A stretch of 54,804 nucleotides of DNA, from the NCBI GenBank assembly GCA_946182825.1, contig CAMGZH010000017.1:1-54804 (forward strand), read 5' to 3'. This DNA comes from an uncultured Lachnospiraceae bacterium (GTDB lineage: Bacteria; Bacillota; Clostridia; Lachnospirales; Lachnospiraceae). Made by a program: the position numbers and the translations under genes. The stretch's first letter is position 1; every line of letters starts with the position of its first letter. The notes beneath the pieces are model-generated. The model was not told the origin of the DNA and did no database searches. It saw only the letters and a list, made by a program, of their open reading frames with translations. This document shows, one piece after another, positions 2,780 to 22,218 of the stretch.

Positions 2780-2808
2780 TTGACATTTTGAGAATGTGAA
2801 TTTATTAT
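2780..2808 (+). promoter_or_regulatory. sigma-A promoter of the nucleosidase-like gene
   Basis: TTGACA at 2780-2785 and TATTAT at 2803-2808 are separated by 17 bp, a near-ideal housekeeping promoter. A TATACT at 2806-2811 offers an alternative -10. Transcription would start near 2815, so the upstream in-frame ATG at 2796 cannot be used. This supports the start at 2895. Confidence 0.8.
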
Positions 2809-2894
2809 ACTATAGAAATGAAAAAATAAACAGATTCTATTGGGGAAAAATTGTTGTAAGGACGAATTTTTATAAAAGAGGAGAGAATGGGACG

Positions 2895-3800
2895 ATGTTA
2901 ATTATATTTGGCGCACTTTGGCAGGAACTGAAAAGTGTCGCAAAGGAACTTCAGTTGAAAAAGACGAAAAAAGATACTCTTTGCCCGGTGTATGAGGATG
3001 CAAAGGGACAGATCCGTCTGGTGATTACGGGGATGGGCAAGGAGGCAGCGTCCTTTGGAGCAGGATGGTATCTGGGGAGTTATGGCTGTAGCGGAGAGGA
3101 TATCTTCCTTAATATAGGAAGTTGTGCCGGAGAGGAGGATGCGGAGGGCATCTACCGGATCCATGGAATTGAGGATCTGTCGGACCATAAGACCTATTAT
3201 CCGGATCTTCGGGGGGTAAGCGAGCTGAAAACGGCAAGGGTCTATACAGCATCGTCCCCGGTGGGTTTCAAAACGATTGAACAGATCCGACAGAAAGCAG
3301 GCGGAGAAATCTGCCTGTTTGATATGGAAGCCTCCGGCCTGTACCAGGGGCTTCGACGGGCGGTCGGACCGGACCGAATGATCTTTTTGAAGGTCGTGAC
3401 GGACCACGGGATGAGCGAAACCAACGGGAAACCGGAACTTTCCGGACAGGTGACCGGAGAAATGGAAGGGAGAGGGGCAGAACTTTCGGAGATCATAAAA
3501 CGAATTATTGAACATGGTGTTCAGAGGGAAGACCCGCTGGATAAGGAAAAAGAAGGGTCGATCTCACCGAAGGAATTTGCGGAACTGGAGCAGACGTTGG
3601 CCCGTCAGCTTTGCGCTTCCGCCACGATGGAATTGCAGATTGGTCAGCTGTGTCGATATGTGGCGTCAGCCGGCATGGAAACGCGGTTTATTAAGGCGGT
3701 TATCAGCATGCAGGAGGCGGGAGTGCTGCCGGTAAGCAACAGGCGTGGCGGAAAACAGGCTTTGGAAACTTTAAAAAATTATATAGTTCCCATTTACTGA
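2895..3800 (+). CDS. phosphorylase-superfamily protein (MTA/SAH nucleosidase-like)
   Basis: About 302 residues. The N-terminal 200 resemble the PNP/UDP phosphorylase superfamily fold: a start like nucleosidases (MLIIFGALWQELK), a glycine turn (VITGMGKEAASFGAGWYL), the LNIGSCAG loop, and the active-site LFDMEASG, followed by FLKVVTDHG, where this superfamily has its substrate-binding Glu and catalytic Asp. The likely reaction is cleavage of an N-glycosidic bond of a nucleoside, substrate unknown. The last 100 residues are helical and unassigned. The start is supported by AGGAG upstream and by the promoter, which rules out a longer form. Similar genes occur in clostridia next to spore photoproduct lyase, but that gene is not present here. 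Confidence 0.72.
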   Translation: MLIIFGALWQELKSVAKELQLKKTKKDTLCPVYEDAKGQIRLVITGMGKEAASFGAGWYLGSYGCSGEDIFLNIGSCAGEEDAEGIYRIHGIEDLSDHKTYYPDLRGVSELKTARVYTASSPVGFKTIEQIRQKAGGEICLFDMEASGLYQGLRRAVGPDRMIFLKVVTDHGMSETNGKPELSGQVTGEMEGRGAELSEIIKRIIEHGVQREDPLDKEKEGSISPKEFAELEQTLARQLCASATMELQIGQLCRYVASAGMETRFIKAVISMQEAGVLPVSNRRGGKQALETLKNYIVPIY

Positions 3801-3888
3801 TAAAATGTGCAGAAAACGTGAATTATAAGTTAATTAAAAGAATTTAACTATGAAACGAAATAAATTAAAAAACGAAAAATTAAAATCC

Positions 3889-3917
3889 TTGCATACGCGA
3901 AAATAAAGGCATATACT
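3889..3917 (+). promoter_or_regulatory. sigma-A promoter of the type IV pilus operon
   Basis: TTGCAT at 3889-3894 and TATACT at 3912-3917 are separated by 17 bp. The predicted start near 3924 gives a leader of about 245 nt before pilB. The surrounding 100 bp is very AT-rich, as expected for an upstream enhancer region. Confidence 0.82.
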
Positions 3918-3923
3918 TTAGAT

Positions 3924-4083
3924 GGGTGAAGAGGGGACAAGTCTGTTCCAGTGGGGTATGTAATACGTGTTTTTAGGTCAGGTTTTTGATTTTGATCATA
4001 TCTTGACTGGTGACGAGGAACGATAATGTCATCGCGATTTAGCGACCCCGAAGAAGGATTCGCTTGATTGCGGTGGCTTTTTT
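3924..4083 (+). promoter_or_regulatory. structured leader RNA with terminator/antiterminator switch (riboswitch-like, class unknown)
   Basis: The pilB leader has several helices: GGGACA/TGTTCC around 3935-3951, GTAT/ATAC near 3956-3966, and GGTCA/TGACT enclosing TGAT/ATCA around 3977-4008. Next, GGTGAC (4009-4014) can pair with GTCATC (4028-4033). The same GTCATC is the 5' foot of an 18-bp terminator stem ending at 4077, so only one of the two can form. This is the layout of a transcription-terminating riboswitch or attenuator. The conserved cores of c-di-GMP-I (GEMM), T-box, SAM, TPP, fluoride or glycine elements were not found by eye, so the ligand is unknown. c-di-GMP would be a natural candidate because clostridial T4P operons can be under c-di-GMP riboswitches. 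Confidence 0.62.
4028..4083 (+). terminator. intrinsic terminator in the pilB leader
   Basis: Positions 4028-4045 pair with 4060-4077: 17 pairs including wobbles and one T/T mismatch, around a 14-nt loop. TTTTTT (4078-4083) follows at once. It lies between promoter and first gene, so expression of the pilus operon requires readthrough. Confidence 0.75.
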
Positions 4084-4169
4084 GGTTTCAGCGGGAGTTT
4101 GGATCTTCAACGGAGATAAAAGCCTCCTTCCCCAAGTAAGTAATAAGGAAAGGTCTATGGAGTTTTAAT

Positions 4170-5918
4170 ATGGCCAGAACGAAATTAAAGATAGGTGATC
4201 TGCTGGTTCAGGCAGGCGTTCTTACAGAAGAGCAGTTGAAGAAAGCCCTGGCTTATTCAAAGGAGCAATACGAGAAGGGTACCCCCAAGCGATTGGGTGA
4301 ATGTCTTAAGGAACTTCGTTTTGCTTCGGATCAGCAGATTGCGAAGGCACTTGCCCGTCAGCTGAATCTGCAACTGGTGGATCTGCAGGGATTTGTTCTG
4401 ACGGATGAGCTTCGGACATTGGTCAAGGGTTCCATCCTCAGAGCCAACACGGTTCTGCCGGTGGCATTCGATCCGAAGGATCCCATGTCAGTCTATGTGG
4501 CAATGGCAGATCCATTGGACTATAACGCATTAGATGATATCGAGATGCTTTTGAGCCCGCGGAGGGTTGTCCCCTGTGTTGCTACGGCATCCGCAATTAA
4601 TACCGTGCTGGATCATTACTTCGGTAATGAGGAGGCACAGAAGGCGGCGGAACGTTTTACAAAAGAGAACAAGGTTCGGCAGGAGGCTGTGCTTGCGGCA
4701 CAGGCCGAGAACGAGAGGCAGCTTGGGAATGCGCCTATCGTACAGCTGCTGAAGCAGATTCTGGAAGCGGCTGTTCGTGACAAGGCTTCGGATATTCACT
4801 TTGATGCTTTGGAGCGACAGGTGCGGATCCGTTATCGAATCGATGGAGTGCTCCAGGATAAGAGTGCCTACGATATTTCCCTGCTTCCGGCTTTTTCCAC
4901 ACGAATCAAGATTCTGAGCGGACTTGATATCGCCGAGAAGCGTAAGCCTCAGGATGGTCGAATGACCATTGAGGTAGAGGGCGTGGAATACGATATCCGA
5001 GTGGCGATCCTCCCCACCTCGTTCGGAGAGAAGATCGTAATGCGAATCACCGTGGCCAACGCTTTGACCAAGGCGAAGAGTGAGCTTGGTATCCAGCCCT
5101 ACGAAATGGCAAGGTTTAACCGGATCCTAAAGCGGCCCAACGGAATCATCCTGGTAACGGGACCGACGGGAAGTGGTAAGTCTACCACCCTTTACACCGC
5201 TTTGTCCGAATTAAATACATCCGATGTTAACATTATGACAGTAGAAGATCCGGTGGAGGCCAATGTACCCGGTATCAATCAGGTACAGGTCAATGTCAAG
5301 GCCGGCCTGACCTTTGCTTCGGCTCTTCGTTCCTTCCTTAGACAGGATCCGGACATCATCATGGTGGGAGAGATCCGAGACAAGGAGACGGCGGAGATCG
5401 CGGTTCAGGCATCCATTACCGGACATCTGGTGGTATCTACCGTACATACCAACAGTTCAGCGGCCACCATCACACGAATGGTGGATATGGGAGTTGAGCC
5501 ATACCTGCTGGCGGATTCTCTGGTGGGAATCATCGCCCAGAGACTGGTAAGACGCCTTTGTACGAACTGTAAGGAAGAACGACTGGCGACGGATTTTGAG
5601 ACAAGAGTGCTGGGACTTCCGGTGGACGGCCCACATCCGAAGATCTGCGTAGCTCACCCCGGCGGGTGCAATATGTGCCATGGCACAGGCTATAACGGTC
5701 GAATCGGTATATATGAGATTATGGAGATGACAAATAATCTCCGTAATATTGTTGCAGCAGGCAAGACTACCCAGGAGCTGGAAGAGGCGGCTAAGGAAGA
5801 GGGGCTTCGGACCCTTCGACAGAATGCGGCAGAGTTCGTTCTCCAGGGATTGACTTCTGTGGAGGAGATGCTGAAGGTAACGGTGAACGAAGCCGGCATC
5901 AATGAGACAGAAGATTAG
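4170..5918 (+). CDS. pilB: type IV pilus extension ATPase PilB
   Basis: Hexameric cytoplasmic motor that drives pilin polymerisation. The N-terminal 150 residues are a GSPII_E/MshEN-type domain (KIGDLLVQAGVLTEEQLKKA), followed by the secretion ATPase core. Visible motifs are Walker A GPTGSGKSTT (about residue 330), the Asp box around VEDPVE, Walker B DPDIIMVGEIRD, the His box HLVVSTVHTN, and a CxxC...CxxC zinc knuckle (LCTNCKEE, CNMCHGTGY) that separates PilB/GspE from PilT. At 582 residues it has the usual length. GGAG lies 7 nt before the ATG. It is the first gene of the operon, behind the attenuator leader. Confidence 0.96.
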   Translation: MARTKLKIGDLLVQAGVLTEEQLKKALAYSKEQYEKGTPKRLGECLKELRFASDQQIAKALARQLNLQLVDLQGFVLTDELRTLVKGSILRANTVLPVAFDPKDPMSVYVAMADPLDYNALDDIEMLLSPRRVVPCVATASAINTVLDHYFGNEEAQKAAERFTKENKVRQEAVLAAQAENERQLGNAPIVQLLKQILEAAVRDKASDIHFDALERQVRIRYRIDGVLQDKSAYDISLLPAFSTRIKILSGLDIAEKRKPQDGRMTIEVEGVEYDIRVAILPTSFGEKIVMRITVANALTKAKSELGIQPYEMARFNRILKRPNGIILVTGPTGSGKSTTLYTALSELNTSDVNIMTVEDPVEANVPGINQVQVNVKAGLTFASALRSFLRQDPDIIMVGEIRDKETAEIAVQASITGHLVVSTVHTNSSAATITRMVDMGVEPYLLADSLVGIIAQRLVRRLCTNCKEERLATDFETRVLGLPVDGPHPKICVAHPGGCNMCHGTGYNGRIGIYEIMEMTNNLRNIVAAGKTTQELEEAAKEEGLRTLRQNAAEFVLQGLTSVEEMLKVTVNEAGINETED

Positions 5919-5960: not shown

Positions 5961-7025
5961 ATGACGTTTGGAGATTTTGATGAACTGGTGACACTGGCCA
6001 AGGATAACCGGGCCAGTGATATCCATGTCAGTGTAGGACAGGTGCCCAGCTTTCGAATCGATGGAAGCATCGTGCCGGTGGGAGAACAGAGATACTCCGT
6101 GAAGGAAATGGACGGAGTATTGGCGAAGGTGGTGGAGGATTCTCACAGCATGGAGATCCTTCGTAGTACCGGAGAGCTGGATCTTCCCTACTCCCTTGCA
6201 GGAGTGGGAAGACTTCGAGTGAATGTCTACCGGCAGAGAGGAAGTTATGCACTGGCAGCAAGACTTCTTAATCCCACCATTCCGGATCCAAGGGAGCTGT
6301 CTATTCCGGATTCTGTGGTTCGCTGCTGTGATAAGAAAAGAGGCATGATCCTCTTTACAGGACCTACCGGTTCCGGTAAGTCCACCTCACTGGCCAGTCT
6401 CATCGACTACGTGAACCGCAGGTATAACTACCATATTATTACCTTGGAGGATCCGGTGGAGTACCTCCATCATCATCAAAGGTCCATCGTCCATCAAAGA
6501 GAGATTGGAAGTGACTCCCTAAGTTATGCCAATGCATTAAGGGGAGCCCTTCGAGAGGATCCGGACGTGATCCTTATCGGAGAGATGCGAGACTTAGAGA
6601 CCATCTCCATTGCGGCAACGGCGGCAGAGACAGGACATCTGGTATTTTCCACCCTGCATACCGTATCGGCAGTGGATACCGTCAACCGAATCATCGATGT
6701 CTTCCCTCCCCATCAGCAGCAGCAGATCCGAACACAGCTGGCGGATATCTTAGAGTGCGTGGTGGCGGAGCAGCTTCTGCCCAGGATCGAGGGGACCGGT
6801 CGAGTGGCAGCCTATGAGGTTATGCTGGCCAACAATGCGATCCGGAACTATATCCGTGAGGGTAAGACCTTCCAGATTACATCCACCATCCAGACCAGCC
6901 GATCCTCCGGCATGATCACCATGGATGATTATATACAGCTGCTGTATCAGAACGGCGAGATCGACCGGGATACAGCACTGCAGTTCTCAAGAGATAAGAT
7001 CTCACAGAAGAATCGCCTTATGTAA
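5961..7025 (+). CDS. pilT: type IV pilus retraction ATPase PilT
   Basis: A 354-residue motor of the PilT/PilU type that depolymerises pili for twitching or DNA/surface retraction. The N-terminal PAS-like fold (ASDIHVSVGQ) is followed by Walker A GPTGSGKSTS (about residue 135), Asp box LEDPVEY, Walker B DPDVILIGEMRD and His box HLVFSTLHT. The zinc cysteines of PilB are absent, and the C-terminus lies in the AYEVMLAN region typical of PilT. It lies 42 bp after pilB in the same operon. Its presence implies dynamic, retractable pili. Confidence 0.95.
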   Translation: MTFGDFDELVTLAKDNRASDIHVSVGQVPSFRIDGSIVPVGEQRYSVKEMDGVLAKVVEDSHSMEILRSTGELDLPYSLAGVGRLRVNVYRQRGSYALAARLLNPTIPDPRELSIPDSVVRCCDKKRGMILFTGPTGSGKSTSLASLIDYVNRRYNYHIITLEDPVEYLHHHQRSIVHQREIGSDSLSYANALRGALREDPDVILIGEMRDLETISIAATAAETGHLVFSTLHTVSAVDTVNRIIDVFPPHQQQQIRTQLADILECVVAEQLLPRIEGTGRVAAYEVMLANNAIRNYIREGKTFQITSTIQTSRSSGMITMDDYIQLLYQNGEIDRDTALQFSRDKISQKNRLM

Positions 7026-7038
7026 GGGAGAGTAACAG

Positions 7039-8253
7039 GTGGCTAATTATATCTACACAGTAATCAATAAAGAGGGCAAACAGCTCAAGGGTAGTCTGGA
7101 GGCCGACACCAGGGAACTGGCAGAGCTTCAGCTTCGTAATCAGGAGATGACCATTGTAGGCATCAACGAGGCTTCGGTGATGAACCAGCAAATTAGTCTG
7201 AGTATCGGTGGTAAGCCCAAGGCCAGAGATATGTCGGTGTTCTGCCGACAGTTTGTCAGCATCGTGGATGCCGGTGTTCCGGTGATCACGGCTCTTACCA
7301 TGTTAGGAGAGCAGACAGAGAATAAGATGCTCCGGGAGGCCATTCAGGGTTGTAAGGTATCCATTGAGAAAGGTACCACCTTAGCGGATGCCATGATGGA
7401 TTATCCCAAGGTCTTTGACCGGATCTTCATTACCATGGTGCGGGCCGGAGAGGAATCCGGATCCCTTAGCAAGTCCTTTGACCGGATGGGGGTCCAGTTC
7501 GAGAAGCAGCATCAGCTCAATGCCCTGATCCGTAAGACATCCATTTATCCAACTGTACTTTTGCTGGTAACAGCAGTGGTGGTTGTGATCATGCTGCGGG
7601 TGGTAGTACCCCAGTATAAGGATATGCTCGCTGACTTAGATGCAGAGCTTCCTGCCATTACCAAGTTCGTAATGGCCTTATCCGAAGGGCTACAGGACTA
7701 TTGGATGATCCTCATTGGAATTGTAGTACTCCTGATTGTAGGATTTCGCCAGATCGCCAAGGGAGAGAGCGGAGCCATTGCCCTATCCAAGCTTCAGCTA
7801 TCCCTTCCTATGCTTGGCACCCTGGTGCGCAAGCAAAATTCCGCCGGATTTACCAGAACCTTATCCACCCTCCTGGCAGCCGGTATTCCTATGATGGATG
7901 CTCTAAATATCGCAGGAGGCACCCTTAAGAACCTGATCTTTGTTCAGGCGGTGGAGCATGCCAGGGATTCGGTATCCATGGGAAGTAACCTCTCCCTTCC
8001 ACTGAAGGAATCGGGACAGTTTCCCCCACTGGTGTATCAGATGATCAGCATCGGTGAGGACACCGGTAACATCGACGGTATGCTGGATAAGGTGGCAGAC
8101 TACTACGACGAAGAGGTGAAGGAAGCCACAGAGCAGATGATGTCCCTTTTAGAGCCGGCCATCATCATCATTCTGGCCCTTGTGGTGGGCACCATCGTTA
8201 TGTCGGTCATCATGCCAATGAGCAGTATGTACCAAGCTCTGGATAATGTATAA
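7039..8253 (+). CDS. pilC: type IV pilus inner-membrane platform protein PilC
   Basis: A 404-residue GspF/PilC protein that couples the PilB/PilT motors to the growing pilus base in the cytoplasmic membrane. It has two homologous GspF domains: residues about 65-190 (FCRQFVSIVDAGVPVITAL) and 265-395 (FTRTLSTLLAAGIPMMDALN). Membrane segments are around 165-190, 215-235 and 370-395. The start is GTG at 7039, with GGGAG 8 nt upstream. It follows pilT by 13 bp. Confidence 0.95.
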   Translation: MANYIYTVINKEGKQLKGSLEADTRELAELQLRNQEMTIVGINEASVMNQQISLSIGGKPKARDMSVFCRQFVSIVDAGVPVITALTMLGEQTENKMLREAIQGCKVSIEKGTTLADAMMDYPKVFDRIFITMVRAGEESGSLSKSFDRMGVQFEKQHQLNALIRKTSIYPTVLLLVTAVVVVIMLRVVVPQYKDMLADLDAELPAITKFVMALSEGLQDYWMILIGIVVLLIVGFRQIAKGESGAIALSKLQLSLPMLGTLVRKQNSAGFTRTLSTLLAAGIPMMDALNIAGGTLKNLIFVQAVEHARDSVSMGSNLSLPLKESGQFPPLVYQMISIGEDTGNIDGMLDKVADYYDEEVKEATEQMMSLLEPAIIIILALVVGTIVMSVIMPMSSMYQALDNV

Positions 8254-8272
8254 AGAGCCGTCCTTCATTTGT

Positions 8273-8302
8273 TGCATCTGCGCTTCAGGGGAGCGCTTTG
8301 CA
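8273..8302 (+). promoter_or_regulatory. stem-loop in the pilC-pilA gap
   Basis: TGCA (8273-8276) pairs with TGCA (8299-8302), and GCGCT (8280-8284) pairs with AGCGC (8292-8296), around the loop TCAGGGG. No U-run follows, so it is not a terminator. A hairpin just upstream of the major pilin gene could protect a processed pilA mRNA and raise pilin yield over the other operon products. The function is inferred. Confidence 0.5.
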
Positions 8303-8344
8303 TATATAACAGGTTTCATCTAACAAAATCAAAGGAGAAAAAGT

Positions 8345-8797
8345 ATGAAAGCTAATGTAACTAAGAATTTCAAGACAAAGAACAAGAAGAACAAAGGATT
8401 TACCTTAGTGGAGCTGATCATCGTTATCGCCATCATCGCCATCCTTGGTATCATCCTTGCACCACAGTACATCAAGTATGTGGATAAGTCCCGTTGGGCA
8501 ACCGATCAGAACAACGCTAAGACACTGTTAAAGGAAGTGCAGACAGCGGTTGTAGATGTACAGGAGGCAGGTGGAGCGTTACCTTCTGCAGACGCAACTA
8601 TTTATATAGATAAGTCTCACAATAAAGTTCAAGGTGTTGATGGGCTTACAACTGATTTGAAAAATTCACTTACTAACGCAGATGCGAACTGGGAAGACAT
8701 ACAGGTTACCAATAAGGGTAAGGCAGACGGTGCTAAGGATACATTCACAATTACTGTTACAAAAGACGGACAGGTTACAGGAAAGTGGAATGATTAA
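8345..8797 (+). CDS. pilA: major type IV prepilin PilA
   Basis: A 150-residue class III signal-peptide protein. The 18-residue leader is rich in Lys and Asn and ends KG, followed by FTLVELIIVIAIIAILGIIL. PilD would cleave between G18 and F19, with Glu at +5 of the mature protein. The hydrophobic helix assembles the pilus core, and the C-terminal 100 residues form the surface-exposed beta region, without a Cys pair. AAAGGAGAAAAAGT precedes the ATG. Compactness, position between pilC and pilD and the hairpin in front of it point to the major subunit; the other pilin-like genes downstream are longer and probably minor. Confidence 0.92.
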   Translation: MKANVTKNFKTKNKKNKGFTLVELIIVIAIIAILGIILAPQYIKYVDKSRWATDQNNAKTLLKEVQTAVVDVQEAGGALPSADATIYIDKSHNKVQGVDGLTTDLKNSLTNADANWEDIQVTNKGKADGAKDTFTITVTKDGQVTGKWND

Positions 8798-8812
8798 TCC
8801 ACTGCAAAGATA

Positions 8813-9583
8813 ATGATCCCATTTATCCCCTGGATCTTCCTCTTCCTTACGGGCATCTGTGTAGGTAGCTTCCTCAATGTATGTATCTACCGGATCCCCA
8901 AGGAGGAAAGTATCGTCATAGGCCCCAGCCATTGCATGAGTTGCGGACATAAATTAGGCTGGGCCGATCTTGTGCCGGTATTCAGTTTCCTCTTTTTAAG
9001 AGGACGGTGTCGTTATTGCAAAGCAGCATTGTCGTTTCAATATCCCCTGATTGAGGCGGCAAATGCACTGCTTTGGCTTTTTTGCTATTACCGGTTCGGT
9101 GATAGTATCGATACACTCATCGCCTGCGGTCTGTCCAGCATCCTGCTGGTACTGTCCGTAATCGATGCAAGGACCCAGATCATTCCATTGGGATGTAATA
9201 TCGGTATTGCCCTTTTAGCGGTGCTCTCCCTGATATTACCCATAGGCACCGCATCGATGGAAAAGCTCCTCTTTCATCTCTTAGGCGCTGTAGCTGTCAG
9301 TGGGTTTTTACTGCTGATCCTGCTCTTCACCGGAGGAGAAGGAATAGGAGGAGATGTGAAGCTGATGGCAGCAGCAGGACTTCTGTTGGGCTTTCCGGGA
9401 ATTGTTATAGCCTTTCTTATAGGCTGCATCGCCGGAACCATCCTTCACCTGATTCGAATGGTATGTTTCCATGCAGGGAGAAGATTGGCCCTAGGTCCCT
9501 ATCTGTCCCTTGGAATATTTATGACCTTACTTTATGGAGAAGATCTGCTCAACTGGTATCTTGGCCTGTTGGGTATAAGGTAA
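8813..9583 (+). CDS. pilD: prepilin peptidase / N-methyltransferase PilD
   Basis: A 256-residue membrane aspartyl protease that removes prepilin leaders and methylates the new N-terminal Phe. The N-terminal part has GSFLNVCIYRIP and the cytoplasmic zinc-type cysteine pairs (MSCGHKLGW, CRYCKAAL). The catalytic Asp residues lie in SVIDARTQIIP and GGEGIGGDVKL, the GxGD signature. About seven to eight membrane helices are visible. It serves pilA and the downstream prepilin-like genes. The ribosome site before the ATG is poor, so translation may be coupled to pilA, 15 bp upstream. Confidence 0.93.
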   Translation: MIPFIPWIFLFLTGICVGSFLNVCIYRIPKEESIVIGPSHCMSCGHKLGWADLVPVFSFLFLRGRCRYCKAALSFQYPLIEAANALLWLFCYYRFGDSIDTLIACGLSSILLVLSVIDARTQIIPLGCNIGIALLAVLSLILPIGTASMEKLLFHLLGAVAVSGFLLLILLFTGGEGIGGDVKLMAAAGLLLGFPGIVIAFLIGCIAGTILHLIRMVCFHAGRRLALGPYLSLGIFMTLLYGEDLLNWYLGLLGIR

Positions 9584-9600
9584 AACAAAGACCACCCGGC

Positions 9601-9654
9601 TACTGCCGGTGGGAAAGGGCGTTGCATGGGCAACGGTTTTTCCCATAGGCAGTA
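9601..9654 (+). promoter_or_regulatory. long intercistronic hairpin between pilD and pilM
   Basis: A 54-nt near-continuous stem. TACTGCC pairs with GGCAGTA (ends 9601 and 9654), TGGGAAA (9610-9616) with TTTCCCA (9639-9645), and GTTGC (9621-9625) with GCAAC (9630-9634), loop ATGG. The short stretches between are mostly wobble pairs. No U-run follows, so it is probably an mRNA processing or stability element that sets the ratio between pilin genes and alignment-complex genes, or a small mobile palindrome. The rest of the 121-bp gap holds nothing recognisable. Confidence 0.6.
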
Positions 9655-9704
9655 AGGACCCTATGTAGGCAAAAATAATAGAAGGTAAAGTAGAAAGAAC
9701 GATT

Positions 9705-11393
9705 ATGGCAGAGACACTTAACATTCAGGTTGGCGACCATATCACCATGGTCTGCCGAATGGCAAAGAAGGGGAAGATCAATCAGATCGCAGAACATTTC
9801 ATCTTTCAGACACCCAATGGATCCGTATCCGACGGAACCATTGCCAATGTGGAGATGTTTGCAAGAAAACTTACCGAGGAGATCGAGGGGCACGGACTAA
9901 AGAAGATCACAGATGTTAATTTCTGTATCTCCTCCAGTAAGATCGCCAGCCGTGAGGCCATCATTCCTAAGGTAAAGGAGAAACAGATCCAGAGTCTGAT
10001 TATGACCAACCTGAAGGACTATTTCCCAATGGATATGTCCGGTTATAAGATCACCTATACCATGTTAGGAGAGGCAACAGGGGATACCCCGGGATACCGG
10101 GTGGAGATTCGGGCGGCTCAGAAGGAGATGCTCAATTCCTATGTGTCTTTGGCCCAGGCGGCACTTTTACATATCAATTCCATTGAGTGCAGTGAGAATG
10201 CCCTCTTCCAGGCGGTGAAGAACGTGAAGATGAAGGGCAATGTCATGTATATGAATATCTCCGCAGTGCGAACGGAGTGTACCTTCATGCGGGACGGAGA
10301 GTTTAAGCTCCATCGTTCCTTCAACGACGGTGGTGACTGCCTGATTACCCCCTATATGGAGGATCAGCTCATCGGCCAGGAAGACTTCATGAAGACCTGG
10401 GAGAAGCTGCTTGATCCGAACCAGACCGTTTTGGATCGCCAGAGGGCGGAAGGCTACCTTGGCCGGCTGGTATCCAATGTAAACCGTGCGGTGGACTTTT
10501 ATGCCAGCACCACCAAGGGGTCTGTGGATGGGATCGTACTCCTGGGCCCCTGTGAGCATCTGCCCCACTTCCGGGAGATCTTAAAGGAAGGCACCGGAGT
10601 GGATGTAGCCTACATCGAGCACCTGTCTGAGGTGGCAGAGCAGCTGGGATCTGTGGTGGAGGTATCCACCTTCCTTACCTGTTTTGCAGGAAGCATCCAT
10701 CCGGTGGATTTTATTCCGGATGAATATCTGGCGAAGGGGAAGAAAAAGGGACTGTCCATCAGCTTTGGAAGTAAGAGTGTGGCAGGAGCCGGAACGGGAG
10801 ATGATTCCTTCACCGCGCCCATTATCATAGCAGCGGTGTGTGTGGCAGCAGGCATTATCCTAAGTCTTATTTCTGTTTTAGGTTACCTGGATAGTAAGGG
10901 ACAGCTGGCAGATATGCAAAAGGAAATGGAGGAATTGCAGCCTGCCAAGAAGGTCTACGAAGATTATCTGATCTACTCCAAGAACCAGGAGGGCATGTCC
11001 TATGTGAAGGATGACGCCAGAGGCAACAATGCCAAACTTAGGAAGTTCTTCGAGGAGTGTCAGAATAAGATGCCAAAGAGCCTTCTTTTCCTCTCTGCCC
11101 AGTTAAACAGCAGCGGAGCAGTTTTGGAGTGTGAGACTTCTACCAACTTGAAGGATGTGGCCAATGTGATCCATGAGTTCCGTTCCTTTAAGAGTATCGA
11201 GGTGATAAGTGTCAGCACACCGGAGATCGTGGAGAACAAGGGAGAGTCGGGAGCAGCGGTAGAGAAGTTCTCGCTTACGGTTACCTTTAACGATCCCCAT
11301 ACCAAGGCCAAGGAAGCGGCAGAGAATCCGGCAGGAACAGCTGCGGGAAGTGATACCACAAATACAGGCAGCACGGAGGGAGCACAGCAATGA
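9705..11393 (+). CDS. pilM: PilM-PilN fusion, type IV pilus alignment complex
   Basis: 562 residues. The N-terminal 340 look like PilM, an actin-like cytoplasmic protein (ISSSKIASREAIIPKVKEKQ, later VDGIVLLGPCEHLPHFREIL). It is followed by VDFIPDEYLAKGKKK, the place where PilN proteins carry their N-terminal 'NLLP' motif. Then come one membrane helix at about 365-390 (IIIAAVCVAAGIILSLI), a coiled coil and a PilN-like extracytoplasmic domain. In most bacteria PilM and PilN are separate and PilM binds the PilN N-terminus; here the two are covalently joined. The tail is rich in Ala, Gly and Thr. It overlaps pilO by 4 bp (ATGA), which suggests coupled translation. Confidence 0.82.
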   Translation: MAETLNIQVGDHITMVCRMAKKGKINQIAEHFIFQTPNGSVSDGTIANVEMFARKLTEEIEGHGLKKITDVNFCISSSKIASREAIIPKVKEKQIQSLIMTNLKDYFPMDMSGYKITYTMLGEATGDTPGYRVEIRAAQKEMLNSYVSLAQAALLHINSIECSENALFQAVKNVKMKGNVMYMNISAVRTECTFMRDGEFKLHRSFNDGGDCLITPYMEDQLIGQEDFMKTWEKLLDPNQTVLDRQRAEGYLGRLVSNVNRAVDFYASTTKGSVDGIVLLGPCEHLPHFREILKEGTGVDVAYIEHLSEVAEQLGSVVEVSTFLTCFAGSIHPVDFIPDEYLAKGKKKGLSISFGSKSVAGAGTGDDSFTAPIIIAAVCVAAGIILSLISVLGYLDSKGQLADMQKEMEELQPAKKVYEDYLIYSKNQEGMSYVKDDARGNNAKLRKFFEECQNKMPKSLLFLSAQLNSSGAVLECETSTNLKDVANVIHEFRSFKSIEVISVSTPEIVENKGESGAAVEKFSLTVTFNDPHTKAKEAAENPAGTAAGSDTTNTGSTEGAQQ

Positions 11394-12067
11394 ATCTGAA
11401 TTTACAAAAAAGAGATATTAAGCTCCTGATCATTTTTGGAGGACTTGTTACCTTACTTCTCTGTTATCTTCTGGTTTTTAATAAGTTTAACGAGAAGCGG
11501 GATGCCATCGATGCCAAGATCACAGAGCTTTCCCCGGAGCTTGATACCCTTCGGGATTATCAGGCCCACAAGGCAGAGTACCAGGAGAAGATCTCCGTTG
11601 CCAAGACGGAGATTGAAAGTGTCCTCTCGGCTCTTCCCACTTCCATCTGGGAGGAGGATCAGGTGCTTTTGGCGGATCGCATGGAAGAAGACCTTAAGAT
11701 CGATGCCGTAGGAGAGGGCTTTAGTGAGCCCCTTCTGGTAAAGCAGCTGAAGGGTGTGACAGAGGATCACTTAGATGAAGCAGCCTCTGCCATCGATCAG
11801 AGTATCTATAAGTCACAGATGACCCTCAAGGCCAAGATGACCTACAATCAGATGAAGGAGTATCTGGATTATATCTTCCATGAGGAAGAACTGACAGGAA
11901 TCGAGTCCATGGAACTGACCTACAATGCAGAGGATCGTAAGATCGATGCCACAACGGTGATCAATTCCTACTATATCAATTATGCCAATGCTCCGGAGGA
12001 GTCCCACCTTGTGCCTAATGTGACCAAGGGTGTGAAGGATCCTTTTGGAACCCATGAGAAAAAATAA
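11390..12067 (+). CDS. pilO: type IV pilus alignment protein PilO
   Basis: 225 residues. A short cytoplasmic N-terminus and one membrane helix (LLIIFGGLVTLLLCYLLVF, about 13-31) are followed by a long coiled coil (about 35-85) and a small alpha/beta domain with a PilO-like ring-building topology. It would pair with the PilN part of the upstream fusion and link the PilC platform to the outside of the membrane. Its ATG overlaps the upstream stop. The assignment rests on topology, size and position between PilMN and the minor pilins; sequence conservation in this family is low. Confidence 0.8.
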   Translation: MNLNLQKRDIKLLIIFGGLVTLLLCYLLVFNKFNEKRDAIDAKITELSPELDTLRDYQAHKAEYQEKISVAKTEIESVLSALPTSIWEEDQVLLADRMEEDLKIDAVGEGFSEPLLVKQLKGVTEDHLDEAASAIDQSIYKSQMTLKAKMTYNQMKEYLDYIFHEEELTGIESMELTYNAEDRKIDATTVINSYYINYANAPEESHLVPNVTKGVKDPFGTHEKK

Positions 12068-12082
12068 GGAAGGAAGAGGGAC

Positions 12083-13381
12083 ATGAAAGCTGGCCGCAGG
12101 TTAAAACTTCATAAGAAAAAAGGCAATCAGCAGGGATTTACCCTGGTGGAGGTTTTGATCGCGGCTATTATTTTAGCCCTGATCATTGTTCCCCTTTTAA
12201 ATCAGTTCGTCTTCTCCTCCCAGGTGACCAGGAGTACCAGAAAGATCAGTAACCAGACCTTAGCGGCAGAGAACCTCTACGAGAAGGTAAAGGGAGCGGA
12301 TGTATCGGTTCTGATTCCTAAGGCAGATGCCACAGGTCATGTGAATCCGGCGGATGTTACCAACCTTCGGGATTATTTTGATGCGGATTCGGTCAAGGTC
12401 CTTACCCCTAAGACCGCTTCTCCCGGCAGATGTGTCTTAGATGTCCGTAACGCCTATGTGACCAATGGCCGATATGATGCGAAGATCATCTTAGATGATG
12501 AGGGAAGTACCGAGCAGTATCTGAACAATCGCCTGATGACGAAGCAGATGGCCTTTGATCATGTGTGCCTGATCGCCAGCAATGACGACGAGGAATACAC
12601 CAAGAATCTCACTGCGGGTAGCAATGTGATAAGGAGGGAGAGAAATATTAAGGTGACCTTCAAGAAAAGCGAGAAGGATGGAGTCACCTTTGTGACACCT
12701 TTGATCACAAGAACCTATAATATTATTTTTGAGCGGCCCACCAAGGAGTGGGAGAAGGCACAGTTTGGTAATTACAAACAGGAGAAGTATGAAGACCAGG
12801 TGGTGACAGATGATCATATAAAACCCTTTGCCTATACCAAAGCAGATGAGGATGGCAATCAGCAGGAGATCCCCTTCGATTTCTTTTTGATCTATACCCC
12901 CTATTATGAGAGTACCTCCATCAATGATAAGGACGATATTACCATTGACAATTCCGAGAATTTCAAGGGGGACTGTTTTGTGGTCCGGGAAAACCGGCCC
13001 TCAGAGGGGGTATCCTATTCCGGAACCATTAACCTGCTTGAGAATCACCCGGAGGATACCATTGATTCCTTCCGTATGAAGATGCACTCCAATATGGGAC
13101 TTAAGAGTGGCGTTGGGGATGAGGACAAGGAACTGGATTTTGGAACCTATCGAATCCGTTACGTCCACAATGCCGAAGGTTGGTTTCGTGAAGGATATAA
13201 CACCATTACCAAAAGCGGAAATACGGTGCTATCCGATCCCTACAGTATCCTTACGGTGTTAAAGCAGGAGAAGATCGATCATGTTTTTCATGTGACCATT
13301 GCGGTGTATGAACATGCAGAGGGGGAGGAAGAACATACCGATGATCCGTTGTATACGTTAGAGGGAATGAAAGTATGGTAA
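12083..13381 (+). CDS. large minor pilin (prepilin-type N-terminal domain protein)
   Basis: 432 residues. A basic 20-residue leader ending QQG precedes FTLVEVLIAAIILALIIVPL, so PilD can cleave it, and Glu+5 is present. The 380-residue globular part is far larger than PilA and is probably displayed at the pilus tip or rarely in the shaft. It is acidic and rich in Asp and Thr; no enzyme motif was recognised. It overlaps the next gene by 7 bp. The class resembles PilV/PilW-type minor pilins. Confidence 0.82.
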   Translation: MKAGRRLKLHKKKGNQQGFTLVEVLIAAIILALIIVPLLNQFVFSSQVTRSTRKISNQTLAAENLYEKVKGADVSVLIPKADATGHVNPADVTNLRDYFDADSVKVLTPKTASPGRCVLDVRNAYVTNGRYDAKIILDDEGSTEQYLNNRLMTKQMAFDHVCLIASNDDEEYTKNLTAGSNVIRRERNIKVTFKKSEKDGVTFVTPLITRTYNIIFERPTKEWEKAQFGNYKQEKYEDQVVTDDHIKPFAYTKADEDGNQQEIPFDFFLIYTPYYESTSINDKDDITIDNSENFKGDCFVVRENRPSEGVSYSGTINLLENHPEDTIDSFRMKMHSNMGLKSGVGDEDKELDFGTYRIRYVHNAEGWFREGYNTITKSGNTVLSDPYSILTVLKQEKIDHVFHVTIAVYEHAEGEEEHTDDPLYTLEGMKVW

Positions 13382-15717
13382 GACAGGGTAAGAAGGCGCT
13401 AAAACAAAATAGTGGAAACGGTCTGATCCTGGTACTTGTGATCGCCATGGTGGTGACTCTTTTAGGGGTTGCCCTCTTGTCCACCAGCTATACCTCCTAT
13501 ATGGTGAAGGTGGCGGAGCGAAAGAGCAACGATACCTTTGCTACGGCAGAGGACGGTATGGATCTGATCCGAGCAGGACTTTTGAATGCAGAGAGTAATG
13601 CCATTGCCAGCGGTTATGCCAAGGTACTTAATTCCTTTTCGGATAACAGTACCAATACGCTGGTGTTTAAGACCGCCTTTTTTGACAGACTGCAAAGCTT
13701 TCAGACCACAAAGATCGACGGATCCGAAGCGAAGCCTCTTTTCCCCAATGCTATGACCAATGCGGATGGAACCAAGACCATCCGTTATTATTCTATTTCC
13801 GCTTTGGAAAACTACCTGCCCTCCGTTCATGCCCAGGGAGACAGCTATACTCTTCAGGCAACGGTGGTAGCCGGCAACAATTCCGACTATGGAAGTGCGG
13901 TGCAGGCAGCGGATAACAAGTCCGTTACCCTTCGGGGAATTAAGCTGACCTACACCAGAGAGGATGGCTATATCACCTCTGTGACCACGGATATTACCAT
14001 GGCCATTCCGGAGATCAGCCTTCGTAGAGCAGATATTGTGGGTGGCGATAAGGCCTTGCAGAATTTCACCGCCATTGCGGATAAGGGGATTCGTAATTTC
14101 CGTACAGGAGAGGGTGGTCAGACGCCGGATGGTGGAACCATCGAAGGCAGTATCTATGCCGGTATGATCGAGATGAAGGGCGGAAGCTTTAATGTGGCGG
14201 ATAACCAGTCCATGGTGGTGGGACGCACCCTTTTGGAGAATGGAGAGCGAACCAGCGGAGATATCACCTTCCTTCAGGGAGGGCAGTTCACCCAGGGAAG
14301 TGGCTCTACACTCTGGATTAATAACATTCAGATGGAAAATAACGGAACCTTTGTTACCCAGTCCAATTCCAAGACCTTAGTGGCAGATGACCTGATGTAT
14401 GAAGGGGAGGGAAGCGTGACCCTTCGGGGCAGCTACTATGGTTTTGGTGCAGAAGATACAGCAGAGAAGAGCAGTTCCATTATTTTTAATTCTACGAAGA
14501 AGGGGATGCTGGATGTTACCGATATCCAAAGTCTTCTCTTAGGTGGCCGAAGCTTCGTACAGGAGAAAGCTAACTCCAATAATATGGTTGCCATGGGATC
14601 TTCTGTTACGGCGAAGCCAGAGCAGGTGGCATATCTGGTACCTTCGGACTTTATGGATGGAGGGAAGAATCCGGATGTGGTAAGTGCAGATGAGGCAGAT
14701 GCAAGAAAAAGCGAGATGGTGGATAGGATCCTCTCCAACAAGAATAAGAAGATCCTTCATGACAATACCCTTGCAGATTATGGAATTAACAGTGCTTCGG
14801 ATATCCGGGTATTGACCTATTCACTACCGGGAGATCAGCCCAAGGTGAGCCAGTACTACTTTTTAAATTTCTCGGATCAGAGCAAGGCCAATGCCTACTT
14901 CCGTGATTATTTTACTTCCCATAAGGGGGAGATCAGCCGTTACTTAGATGCCTATGCCAATCTTAGGGGATTTGAGAAGGGAGGCTCCTTTGTCTCCTCC
15001 TCCACTTCCGTTAAGAAGGTGGGAGAGGGCTATGAGGTGACCCCCGGAGGCCAAAACCTAAAGGATGAGGGGGAGGACTATGCCCGCCGTTATATGAACC
15101 TAAGCCAGACCTTAAGCGAGGATAACAGCAACGAAGAGAGTACACCTTTCTGGACCTATATTAATAAATCCACCCTGGATGCCTGGTGCGAAGGAAAAGA
15201 GGGAAGTCTTGTCCCTGTAGCATGGCATGTGAAGCCTGACGTTGCAGAACGAAGATATAATAAAAATAAGGTGGTCTGCCGGGGGAAAACGTATGGCTCC
15301 GAGACCATTGGTGCCGATGGTCCTTCCGTTGGTAAAATGGAAGTGGCAGGCTACTGTGCAGTGGCCCGCCCGGGAGTTCCTATTGATGCCTCCTCCCTTT
15401 CCGGCGGAACGAAATGTAACTTCCTGGTGGTAGATGGTGATGTGAACCTGGGTAAAAGAGTGGTAGATGGTGATGTGAACCTGGGTAACGGAGTGGTGGA
15501 TGGTGATGTGAACCTGGGGAACGGATTCGATGGAATCATCATGTGCAGCGGTTACTTAAATACCGGTGGAGCCTACCTGCATCTTCAGCAGGATGGCATC
15601 AACCATCTGCGTAAGTCTGACCTGTGGAACGGAACGAAGAACGGTTCCGGACTTTCCAAGGGAGATGACTGGGAGATGGATGAGATCGTCACCTATTCCA
15701 ACTGGAAGAAGGACTAA
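13375..15717 (+). CDS. PilX-like minor pilus protein, 780 residues
   Basis: The N-terminus (GNGLILVLVIAMVVTLLGVA) is a PilX_N-type segment: a hydrophobic pilin helix without the usual GF cleavage pair. The 700-residue exterior is Ser/Gly/Thr-rich. Its middle, about residues 230-370, has the repeating glycine and asparagine turns of a beta-helix or adhesin (GNMVVGRT-like and GGQFTQGSG-like turns). Near the C-terminus an 11-residue motif, VVDGDVNLGNG, is repeated three times. Its start overlaps the end of the previous gene, so translation is probably coupled. A priming minor pilin or tip adhesin is the most likely role. Confidence 0.75.
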   Translation: MVRQGKKALKQNSGNGLILVLVIAMVVTLLGVALLSTSYTSYMVKVAERKSNDTFATAEDGMDLIRAGLLNAESNAIASGYAKVLNSFSDNSTNTLVFKTAFFDRLQSFQTTKIDGSEAKPLFPNAMTNADGTKTIRYYSISALENYLPSVHAQGDSYTLQATVVAGNNSDYGSAVQAADNKSVTLRGIKLTYTREDGYITSVTTDITMAIPEISLRRADIVGGDKALQNFTAIADKGIRNFRTGEGGQTPDGGTIEGSIYAGMIEMKGGSFNVADNQSMVVGRTLLENGERTSGDITFLQGGQFTQGSGSTLWINNIQMENNGTFVTQSNSKTLVADDLMYEGEGSVTLRGSYYGFGAEDTAEKSSSIIFNSTKKGMLDVTDIQSLLLGGRSFVQEKANSNNMVAMGSSVTAKPEQVAYLVPSDFMDGGKNPDVVSADEADARKSEMVDRILSNKNKKILHDNTLADYGINSASDIRVLTYSLPGDQPKVSQYYFLNFSDQSKANAYFRDYFTSHKGEISRYLDAYANLRGFEKGGSFVSSSTSVKKVGEGYEVTPGGQNLKDEGEDYARRYMNLSQTLSEDNSNEESTPFWTYINKSTLDAWCEGKEGSLVPVAWHVKPDVAERRYNKNKVVCRGKTYGSETIGADGPSVGKMEVAGYCAVARPGVPIDASSLSGGTKCNFLVVDGDVNLGKRVVDGDVNLGNGVVDGDVNLGNGFDGIIMCSGYLNTGGAYLHLQQDGINHLRKSDLWNGTKNGSGLSKGDDWEMDEIVTYSNWKKD
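15427..15525 (+). repeat. 33-bp in-frame tandem repeat (3 copies) inside the PilX-like gene
   Basis: Units at 15427-15459, 15460-15492 and 15493-15525 are nearly identical and encode VVDGDVNLG plus two variable residues. The low divergence suggests recent expansion. Because 33 is divisible by three, changes in copy number would lengthen or shorten the protein without a frameshift. Confidence 0.92.
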
Positions 15718-15732
15718 GAGAGGGCAGTGATC

Positions 15733-16254
15733 ATGAAAAAGAATAACAAGGGTTTTACATTGCTGGAACTGATCGTGATCGTAGCCATTATTGCAGTGAT
15801 CTCCGGACTGGCGGCAGTGTCCTTATTTCCCATACTAAGTACTGCGGCCAAGCAGGCTGCAACCTCCGCCAAGGCTATGATCTACCAGTGTAAGACAGAC
15901 TGTATGGCAAAGGATCCGGATAAGACCTGCCTGGTATTAGAGAATACAGAGGGCCGTATCCTGGCCACCTATTATGAGGGGGATCTTACCACAGAAGTTT
16001 CCTCCGAGAAGCTGTCAAAGCACAAGGTCACCCTGACCTATGGAGGAACGACCCTGCAGGAGGGAGAGAAGCTTTTCCTTAATTTTGATAAGTCCACAGG
16101 ATCCCTTCACCATTTTGGGGTGGCAGATGCACTGGAGAATGCAGCGGTAGCAGTTGCAGATACCAATTGCCTGATTACCCTTACCAGCGGAAGCACCACT
16201 TATGAGCTTCAACTGGATCCTGTGACCGGTGTATGCAAACTGAAGAAGCAGTAG
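15733..16254 (+). CDS. prepilin-like protein (minor pilin)
   Basis: About 173 residues. The leader MKKNNKG precedes FTLLELIVIVAIIAVISGLA, a standard class III prepilin cleavage site with Glu+5. The mature exterior is about 140 residues with two Cys in the first half and one near the end. The ATG at 15733 is chosen over a GTG two codons upstream because AGGG lies 8 nt before it but only 2 nt before the GTG. It is probably one of the low-abundance pilins that initiate the filament. Confidence 0.85.
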   Translation: MKKNNKGFTLLELIVIVAIIAVISGLAAVSLFPILSTAAKQAATSAKAMIYQCKTDCMAKDPDKTCLVLENTEGRILATYYEGDLTTEVSSEKLSKHKVTLTYGGTTLQEGEKLFLNFDKSTGSLHHFGVADALENAAVAVADTNCLITLTSGSTTYELQLDPVTGVCKLKKQ

Positions 16255-16264
16255 GAGTTACGGT

Positions 16265-16891
16265 ATGACAAGAATGATCCGAAAACTTCATAAAGGAAAC
16301 AACGGGGGCTTTACTCTGGTGGAGCTGATCATCTCCATTGCGATCCTGTCCATGGTGCTGGCCACGGCCTGTGCCTTTATGGTCTTAGGGGCTAAGACCT
16401 TCTTCTCTGTGAATGAGAGGGTGGAACTGTCCTACAGCTCCGGTCAGGCCTTGGCTCAGATCAATCAGAAGATCATCAACAGCAATGGGAAGGTCATTCT
16501 GAAAAAGGATCCCGGGGCTGCGGATTTTAAGCTGTTTATCATTCAGGCCACAGCCTGGGATGATACCACCTTAAAGCCCACCCTGTATCAGATCTGCTGT
16601 TATACCTATGACAGCAGCGAGGGAACCCTTTCCTATAAGGAGAGTGCTCCGGCGGCCTACGGAGAGGGAACGGTGGAGAGCGGTATCGCCTTTGGAGGGG
16701 AGCATATCCTCTGTTCCAATATTACCGCAGCAACTGTTACGTCCAATCCTTCGGACCATAAGCTGTACGGATTGAAGCTTATCCTGCAGCAGAGTAGGAA
16801 TGGTAAGACCTATAACGCCAGACGGGATATTTCCCCGAGAAATCATCCGGTCTATGGGGAAAGCTTTGATGATAATTTCCTCTGGAAATAA
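16265..16891 (+). CDS. prepilin-like protein (PilW/GspJ-like minor pilin)
   Basis: 208 residues. A leader of 14 residues with basic side chains ends GG before FTLVELIISIAILSMVLATA; Glu+5 is present. The exterior domain contains QALAQINQKIINSNGKV, like the start of PilW/GspJ minor pilins. It lies 10 bp after the previous pilin gene and 23 bp before the giant gene. A tip-complex role is inferred from order and size. Confidence 0.84.
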   Translation: MTRMIRKLHKGNNGGFTLVELIISIAILSMVLATACAFMVLGAKTFFSVNERVELSYSSGQALAQINQKIINSNGKVILKKDPGAADFKLFIIQATAWDDTTLKPTLYQICCYTYDSSEGTLSYKESAPAAYGEGTVESGIAFGGEHILCSNITAATVTSNPSDHKLYGLKLILQQSRNGKTYNARRDISPRNHPVYGESFDDNFLWK

Positions 16892-16914
16892 GAAAAAGGA
16901 GTATGGAGGCGCCT

Positions 16915-19900
16915 ATGAAAAAGCGGCCGATGTTTGAAGTAAAAGAAGTGAAGAAAAAGAAAGAAAAGGGGCAGGGGCTGGTAAAACGGCGCCTGCTTTC
17001 TGCCATTCTTGCCGGGGCGATGATCCTTCCTGTGGTGGCCTATCAATATACCTCCACAGCCTCTGCCAAGCAGCAGACCTCTCTTCCCCATATCGAAGAG
17101 ATCAAGCGGGTGATGAATACCGCCTCCTCCGCTTCTTTTCATATCTTAGAAGTAACCCCTAAGGCAGGAGCGGGAACAAGAGAGGACGCTGTGACCGGTG
17201 AGATCGGTTACTATATTGCAGGGCAGGAGCCGGTGAATTTTAAGGAGATGCTCTCCGGTACTTCCTTTTCCTCCTCTCAGGAGAGAGTAAGCTGGGCCAA
17301 TGGCTATCTTCAGGGACTATCCGGTGCCGGGATCTTAAGTGCACAGGAGGATAAGGCCCCTCTTAAGGCGACCTTCCAGGAAGGGAACACTTATTACAAA
17401 GAGTATTACCCCTGGGAGCAGGCCCCGGAGGGAGCAAAGGATCTGTATTTTACCGATGATCAGGGTGACGAGCGGGTAGAGACGACCCGGGTCAACGGTC
17501 AGATCAAAGAAAAAGAGGGAGGAGCCTACGACGCTTCCAAAGATGCCTATGTGGTCTCCACTGAGGGCCATTATGTTCAGAACATCGATGCAGATTATCC
17601 TCTCCGGCAGGTAAGCGATATCAAGGATCTAAAGGAGGACTTTGATTCTGCAAAGGAGCAGTATATCTTCTATGAGGATCCTGTCTTTTCCAAGGAGCTT
17701 GAGGTGGGAGATGACGGGAAGCTTGTTGTGCCGGAATCCTATTATGCTGCCATCGGTAAGAAGCTGATCTACTCATTAAATCCGGAGGATAAGGAGCCGG
17801 CATGGCGGTTTGACTATGATGCCACGGCACATAACTACTATCAGGTGGGATGTAAGTTCCGGGTGCTTTCCGGATTCAACTCCCTTCCTTCCATGGGGAA
17901 GGAGATTTCCCTGGACTATGATGATCTGTTGGCCGGCGGCTATTATGCGGCAAGGATCCGTCTGGACGGTCCCTTTAAACCGGCAAAGGATGGACAGGTG
18001 GGCTTTTTTGACCTTCAGACCAGTGACCTGCAGTATGTTGGTCCCGGTAAGGGAAGCTTTGACCTGGAAGGTCTGTCGGTGGATGCCAACGGAAATTACC
18101 TTGTCAGCTATGATCATGTAAAATACAAGGGCGGTTATAAGAACAACAACTGGTTCCTTCGCAGTGTATTAGATTACCGGGAGAGCAGTCCGGAAGAACT
18201 GGCATCTTTGTCGAAGAAGGTCACAGTAGATTCATTAACACCGGACAAGGTGGATAAAACCATGGATCTAGATCGGGGGCAGTCCCAGGATATCGACGGC
18301 TATGATCTGATCGTGGTAAGTAATGGAATCAATGTTTTTGCCAATAATCTTAATAATTCGAATCAGTATAGTGCCTATGGAGATGAAAAAAAGGGCTTCA
18401 AGCAGGCTCTAAAGAAGTACCTTGGTAACAAAGGGGCTGTGGTAGCCCGGGAAGAGGCAGCCGGCTATTTTAACGATCCACTTACGGGAGGAACCAATCA
18501 TCCCAATACTGTCCGGCAGGGAGATACCAACGGAAGGATCTACGGCGGCATCTATCTGGTAAGAGCGGACAATGACAGAAAGACCCTTATAACCCCAAAC
18601 TTTACCACAAACTTCGACGAGAGCCAGTATAAGGAGAATGACAGCGGGTTCTACGATGTCTATGATGAGATCAACCACGAGAACATCCTACGCCAGAGAA
18701 CGGATGAGAATACCACGGATCTTTTGGATGATGATATCAATATGGCAACGGCCATCCGTTATGTGATCAATTTCCGGAATCAGCGTAGCAGAGGTAAGAA
18801 GGAGAGGATAAGGATCTTAGATATTGAGCCCCCGGCAGATCCGAGAGGAAATGTATCCAATCATACCATTTCCTCTGAGATCACAAAGGACAGTCAGGCC
18901 AGTGGAACCATTAGGGATCGACTTTTAAAGCAGTGGTTCTCCAATGTCTATACAGCGGATAAGATCACAATTACCACAGTTTCTACGGCCACCTTGATCG
19001 GTCTGACCCAGGATGTGACCGAGGACTATGATCTGATCTATATCGGTGGCGGCAATAAACAAAAAACGAATGAGTATCAGGATACGGGGATGAGAGGCCT
19101 GATCTACTACAATATTGGTGATACGGTGAAGGTCCCAAACAGAAGGGATGAGGGACTTTTTTCCACGTCAGGCCTTCTGGATGAAGACTATGACAATCAA
19201 AAGGCCTACGATCAGGTCTACCGTTACAGCGGCAATGATCTGACCCAGAAGAAGGCGGATGAGATTTCAGGTTTTGCCGCAGTGGGACTTCCGGTGATCT
19301 ATTCCAAAAATCTGGCAGATGAGAAGTCTTATCCTGCACAGGAAATTGAAGTGGGATTTAAGGATCAGCCAAGTCTGGCCTTACAGGATTATGGCAATAG
19401 TGCCAAGGTGACGGTGACTCCCTTAAAGGAGGGGGATAATATTTCCTACAGTTACCAGTGGTACCGTAACGATTCAGTGGTACCGGGGGCAACAGGACCT
19501 TCATTCTCCGTGCAGAAGGGAGATTTCCATAATGGGACGATTCTGCAATGTTGGATCACCTCTGTCGAGGTGAATGGACAGACCTTCACCTTTGATACAG
19601 ACCAGGCTCCCAGAAGTGACAGGATTCGATTGAATGTATATCCTTCTGCCTATCTGGAAGGCCGTGGTACAGGATCGGCCCAGTATTATAAGCCTACTCA
19701 TTATTGGTCCCATTGGTATGAACAGGTGCAAATGACCGACGATAAATCAGCGATCTGGGTTCCGGGTTTTAATTCTGATAAGGCACAGGTCTACTGGTTT
19801 AAGACAAAGGATGAACAAAAGAGGGTATACGGTAACTATACGAGGGCTATCGATTGGAGTGACGGAGATGTGATCCAGTGCGTTTATGATGACCGGTATT

Positions 19901-22163: not shown

Positions 22164-22218
22164 AAACTGACACTTTTGTATGTTATACTAATGTAACAGG
22201 ACAGGGGTGTCAGTTTTT
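22164..22218 (+). terminator. terminator after the giant pilus gene, with a possible promoter in its loop
   Basis: AAACTGACAC (22164-22173) pairs perfectly with GTGTCAGTTT (22207-22216), and the T-run 22214-22218 follows. The 33-nt loop is long for a terminator and contains TATACT (22184-22189), a good -10 element for the VWA gene, although no clear -35 is seen 17 bp upstream. The VWA gene may thus be transcribed separately or by readthrough. Confidence 0.6.

Follow-up and report, generated by a model that had tools for sequence, protein, structure and literature searches.

The window, that is, the whole stretch of 54,804 nucleotides analysed here, comes from a Lachnospiraceae genome and carries a type IV pilus operon whose first gene is pilB. 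Its PilB is 97% identical to the PilB of Lachnospiraceae bacterium C10 (C10) and to that of the MAG RUG14892 (RUG). The leader of the operon spans the gap between a promoter-like site and pilB, and the following features were assigned to the region.

3889-3917, + strand: promoter-like site of the operon, TTGCAT-N17-TATACT (from the sequence; kept in both orthologues)
3922-3963, + strand: possible 13-codon leader ORF, MGEEGTSLFQWGM-stop, covering the P1 5' strand (putative, from translation)
3934-3949, + strand: 5' hairpin P0, with sequence and size differing among species (folding)
3953-3961, + strand: conserved GGGGTATGT, with GGGGU as 5' strand of helix P1 (identical in 3/3 orthologues)
3976-4007, + strand: species-variable hairpin between P1 and P2 (folding)
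4008-4014, + strand: P2 5' strand UGGUGAC, antiterminator (folding, alignment)
4028-4034, + strand: P2 3' strand GUCAUCG, common to the terminator base (folding, alignment)
4028-4083, + strand: intrinsic terminator, stem 4028-4077 and U6 4078-4083 (12/12 basal pairs kept in 3/3 species)
4038-4049, + strand: conserved UUUAGCGACCCC, of which ACCCC 4045-4049 is the P1 3' strand (TTTAGYGACCC in 3/3 orthologues)
4170-5918, + strand: pilB, the gene that opens the operon; MshE-related c-di-GMP-binding N-terminus (profile matches)
5961-16891, + strand: further type IV pilus genes (Pfam)

The pilB product matched the T2SSE domain with 461 bits (Pfam). The stretch 5961-16891 encodes pilT-like and pilC-like proteins (T2SSE, T2SSF), a pilin, a prepilin peptidase, a pilM product and further N_methyl proteins; two ORFs within it had no Pfam match. 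This gene content agrees with the preliminary description, which had placed the leader before a whole type IV pilus operon. Downstream of the pilin-like genes, we also observed a protein of 1751 aa that carries a DUF5057 domain (16903-22158), followed by a VWA-domain protein (22207-23517); both are possibly large pilus-associated surface proteins. The ORF immediately upstream of the leader (2796-3800) had no Pfam or NCBIfam match, and its stretches NIGSCAG and FDMEASGLYQ may hint at nucleoside phosphorylase/MTA-SAH nucleosidase proteins.

The -35 element of the promoter-like site (TTGCAT, 3889-3894) and its -10 element (TATACT, 3912-3917) are separated by the N17 spacer, and the arrangement is conserved across the window, C10 and RUG. 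A simple promoter/terminator scan listed neither this site, because its -35 element matches three of six consensus letters, nor the terminator of the leader, which probably lies outside the stem and loop limits of the scan. Judging from the position of the promoter-like site, the RNA probably starts near 3922-3925. As a consequence of this start, the most upstream helix in the fold of 3900-4090 would be absent from the transcript; its CATATACTTT arm covers TATACT and is probably untranscribed, since TATACT is the -10 box of the conserved site. The upstream multi-helix region of the preliminary description would need correcting to that extent.

The letters GGTGAC (4009-4014), GTCATC (4028-4033) and T6 (4078-4083), on which the preliminary description was built, were all found in the sequence. 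It had proposed an 18-bp terminator with GTCATC at its base and six T at its end. The base and the U6 tract were retained in our analysis, and 17 of the 18 positions are paired in the predicted stem, the remaining one being a mismatch. Twelve basal pairs were compared in the three species, and all 36 cells were paired, with both sides changed in two of the pairs. A result as good was reached by 65 of 500 shuffles, and a slide of +3 also gave two doubly changed pairs. The T run is separated from pilB by 86 bases in the window, by 45 in RUG and by 194 in C10. In the C10 interval (3807-4000 of locus L002), palindrome-like stretches were visible by eye.

The same GTCATC strand is predicted to pair with GGTGAC, so that the two folds compete for it and are mutually exclusive, as had been claimed. 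The competing fold contains, besides P0 and P2, the helix P1 (GGGGU 3953-3957 with ACCCC 4045-4049), which encloses P2 and had been overlooked in the preliminary description. When the transcripts were cut before the 3' arm of the terminator, this antiterminator of P0, P1 and P2 was the best fold in 3/3 species (minimum free energies of -33.4 in the window, and -27.2 and -30.3 in the others), with an equal-energy alternative lacking P2 in C10. The P2 pairs had probabilities of about 0.55-0.99, except for the terminal U-R pair in the window (0.01). P1 reached 0.8-0.9 in the window and 0.96-1.0 in RUG; in C10 it formed solely after a register shift, as GAUGGG/CCCAUC (0.96-0.99), and the pairing used by the window and RUG had just 0.01-0.04 there. 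The adjoining P1b (URR/UUA), with probabilities of 0.25-0.3 in the window, 0.83-0.84 in RUG and 0.01 in C10, appears to be a weaker proposal than P1 and P2. At full length, the terminator was the minimum free energy fold in the window (-48.5 vs -40.3 for the antiterminator, a lead of 8.2 kcal/mol) and in C10 (-44.0 vs -32.9, a lead of 11.1 kcal/mol, the C10 antiterminator having been computed in the P1 register of the window and RUG and thus probably being given as too weak). The default state is predicted to be OFF in these two species because the terminator wins at full length. In RUG, the antiterminator (-41.0) was slightly favoured over the terminator (-39.8).

Comparisons with shuffled sequences gave a mixed picture of the folding energies. 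The region 3900-4090, which includes the terminator and part of the promoter, was more stable than its shuffles (z -3.09). For the truncated antiterminator, z was -0.46 in the window, -1.05 in C10 and -2.57 in RUG; its stability lies clearly above that of shuffles in RUG only, as 5 of 500 matched it there vs 144 in the window and 76 in C10. After shuffling of the leader part that precedes it, pairing onto the 5' part of the terminator was matched by 107/300 versions in the window, 181/300 in C10 and 21/300 in RUG. An in silico exchange of GGGG for CCCC in the window left the predicted fold no weaker (-35.2 vs -33.4). Of the 48 alignment cells of P1, P1b and P2 taken together, 95.8% held standard pairs, compared to 31-58% when the strands were slid by 1-3 columns. 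The antiterminator pairs are mostly invariant, and 312 of 500 shuffled partners did as well; the covariation score was 0.208, with a higher value (0.271) in the +3 slid register. With n = 3 sequences, covariation is neither for nor against the antiterminator.

The conservation of the leader against the drift of silent sites is stronger evidence than folding energy. At fourfold-degenerate sites of pilB, the three species were identical at 79 of 265 positions (30%), with pairwise values of 0.44-0.56. In the leader, on the other hand, GGGGTATGTRR is kept, and in the blocks GGGGTATGT, TGGTGRC and GTCATCRYGRTTTAGYGACCC 32 of 37 columns were identical (binomial P 1e-12, to be taken as a guide only, as the blocks were picked after viewing the alignment). 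Strands of both folds are conserved in this comparison, and the terminator carries two compensatory changes. Conserved sequence was also found outside the helices, namely the AUG of GGGGUAUGU and GRUUUAGYG, and the interval between P1b and P2 measured 43 nt in the window, 19 nt in C10 and 7 nt in RUG. Homologous pilB leaders had been named as the place to look for conserved pairing, and both folds recurred in the two orthologous leaders found. The case for the antiterminator is thus one of conservation and of the recurrence of the same predicted fold in three species, not one of energy.

The element seems to be confined to the clade of these three species. PilB matches were present in all 13 genomes of the genus, and the leader was recovered by DNA similarity in three of them, including that of the window; riboswitch classes are usually far broader in distribution than 3/13 species of one genus. 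The same similarity search gave none in phages and, among 200 genomes of the family, only the window's own copy, and viral contigs had 0 matches to GTCATCNNGRTTTAGYGACC. In a PilB scan of relatives' contigs, the best 80 of 163 included two at 97% identity, followed by the next at 51%; TTTAGYGACCC was absent from the other 78 of these best 80. Among 113 loci examined, it occurred in 8, all from the species of the window, C10 and RUG. The six sister species (L087-L092, PilB 68-71%) had no GTCATC or TTTAGYGACC within 320 bases before pilB (238 in L087). Promoter-like TTGNAN-N17-TANNAT sites precede pilB in these six within the ≤ 320 bases inspected, a reach that falls short of the C10 site; they lie 76-122 bases upstream of the pilB start, which gives short leaders. 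L093-L095 (PilB 41-43%) likewise had neither GTCATC nor TTTAGYGACC and no such promoter, the match there not starting at the start codon. Another genome of the genus, G200, yielded distant ATPase matches only; GGGGTATGTRR was seen once in L109, the stretch around its distant ATPase.

A model (R1) built on the three sequences, which recovers the window copy partly (model positions 17-59), was searched in four overlapping samples of 391-397 genomes each, with stricter filters that could miss distant members. It found 3/395 among the relatives, all three known, and 1/392 in the order sample, the window's own copy. The class sample gave 2/391 and the family sample 2/397, with one additional match each. 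The class match (L118, 24.0 bits, E 0.08) was treated as chance, its position being within a coding sequence. The family match (L119, 24.8 bits, E 0.04) sits 22 bases before a gene start; being a GC-poor (0.29) palindrome with neither GGGGUAUGU nor UUUAG, it was judged to be chance as well. At relaxed stringency (E ≤ 5), R1 found one copy and no second in each of the genomes of the window, C10 and RUG.

The preliminary description had recognised no known riboswitch core, which is in line with our search of 4227 Rfam families: none was found in the leader at the gathering score, and the only five matches in the window were tRNAs at 54 kb. At E ≤ 10, region 3780-4200 returned four eukaryotic families only, far below their cut-offs (best E 0.15) and not credible. 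The c-di-GMP-II riboswitch (RF01786) had no match in the window at the gathering score, nor in 3780-4200 at E ≤ 10; across the genus it was found in 0/13 genomes, a count that does not demonstrate absence, since the control genomes also gave 0. The c-di-GMP-I riboswitch (RF01051) is present in the same genus, as one copy in one of 13 genomes (G202), with 0/14 control genomes matched, whereas none was found in the window or elsewhere in its genome.

As described in two papers (PMC6200980, PMC11477304), a c-di-GMP-II riboswitch, Cdi-2-4, precedes the pilA1 operon of Clostridioides difficile and is an ON switch, its c-di-GMP-bound form permitting transcription read-through. The leader studied here resembles Cdi-2-4 in that both are structured leaders of type IV pilus operons and both belong to Clostridia. 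It differs in having no match to RF01786 or any other Rfam family and in preceding pilB, not the main pilin gene. In a limited literature search, titles and the beginnings of abstracts held no attenuator or orphan riboswitch that we recognised as described for such a pilus operon. Regarding the cellular context, the genome of the window has 25 GGDEF matches, and the PilB N-terminus matched the MshE-related c-di-GMP-binding model with 49 bits (cut-off 38) as well as Pfam MshEN. On account of these GGDEF matches and the MshE-related domain, c-di-GMP is circumstantially favoured, to the extent of being a reasonable first candidate ligand. Across the 13 genomes of the genus, the number of GGDEF matches ranged from 13 to 35, which is high for a genome size of ~ 2-3 Mb.

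As in an attenuator, the leader is predicted to hold a terminator and a mutually exclusive antiterminator. Our main and most likely reading, to which we assign a probability of about 0.45, is that it acts as a lineage-specific ON-type transcription attenuator of the pilus operon, probably with a ligand or other factor as its trigger; this effector might be a small molecule, for example c-di-GMP. In this mechanism, where the RNA start and the effector are inferred, as are the switching and the direction it takes, the RNA would start near 3922-3925. P0 and the variable hairpin would fold first, together with P2 (UGGUGAC/GUCAUCG) and P1 (GGGGU/ACCCC). The effector would stabilise the upstream P1/P2 fold. 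With P1/P2 held, the 5' strand of the terminator would be occupied and the polymerase would read into pilB; otherwise, the terminator would form and transcription would stop at 4078-4083. Of the label "riboswitch-like attenuator" used in the preliminary description, the mutually exclusive folds before a pilus operon stand and recur in both orthologues, and the term riboswitch is not yet justified. A bolder form of the proposal would make the leader a new riboswitch class of a small Lachnospiraceae clade. Its P1/P2 core, comprising GGGGUAUGURR and GRUUUAGYGACCC, would bind either c-di-GMP or a different signal related to the pilus, and would thereby switch the whole operon on; we consider this form distinctly unlikely.

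The main rival is control by a leader peptide, since all three species have a short frame with its end on the P1 strand, the C10 frame having a weak start. A ribosome on this 5' frame would mask P1 and let the terminator form; if the frame were poorly translated, P1 would become free and read-through could follow. In the window and in RUG (MGEVRRKSPRGM-stop) the frames open with an ATG at the promoter and share their end point; C10 has a GTG frame ending in WGM-stop. The stop codons of the three frames are TAA, TGA and TAG. The frame closes with Gly-Met-stop atop GGGGUAUGURR. However, no Shine-Dalgarno sequence was seen by eye and the 5' UTR is almost nil, C10 has no ATG in frame, and the peptides share little beyond their last two residues. 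Pairing with the conserved UUU could also account for the purines that follow UAUGU, though this pairing is predicted to be weak in the window and C10. In trp/tnaC-type attenuators, terminator and antiterminator compete, and there is a short frame overlapping one of the key strands. The leader is similar in both respects but has no visible ribosome binding site, a poorly conserved frame and no run of codons for a sensed amino acid, and we regard ribosome-controlled attenuation as unlikely. Another small frame (4026-4067, MSSRFSDPEEGFA-stop, with GAGGA upstream; MSSWFSDP... in RUG) was rejected as a candidate for conserved coding sequence, having an in-frame stop in C10. A trans-acting RNA-binding protein might take the place of the ribosome, reading the conserved internal-loop and junction sequences and stabilising or blocking the antiterminator. 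The conserved AUG of GGGGUAUGU and GRUUUAGYG outside the helices, and the narrow, lineage-specific spread, would suit such a protein, while the single copy per genome found by the model in all three genomes argues against it and makes this explanation distinctly doubtful.

The remaining two explanations dispense with a switch. In one, a fixed partial terminator would do no more than set a basal level of operon expression, and the antiterminator-like fold would be incidental; the closeness of the folding energies to shuffles in the window and C10 and the dominance of the terminator at full length in both are consistent with it. Against this, GGGGU and UGGUGRC, strands used by the antiterminator only, were kept while the silent sites of pilB diverged, and we hold this explanation to be more doubtful again. 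Alternatively, the terminated transcript of ~ 160 nt could itself serve as a small regulatory RNA whose exposed seed is GGGGUAUGU, the pilus operon being transcribed by mere read-through. It would have its own promoter-like site and terminator, and the full-length fold of the window leaves GGGGUAUG unpaired; yet the seed stretch can pair with the downstream ACCC in 3/3 species, and the element precedes pilB in all of them, which leaves this explanation very improbable.

If the c-di-GMP-binding or otherwise pilus-related new class proved true, it would act in a genome in which no known c-di-GMP riboswitch was found. If c-di-GMP is the ligand, the leader would represent a further RNA solution beside the c-di-GMP-II riboswitch at the pilus operon of C. 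difficile. Should the switch prove real, RNA would control the pilus operon in a small clade whose sister species have plain short leaders, and this would offer a compact case for how attenuators arise.
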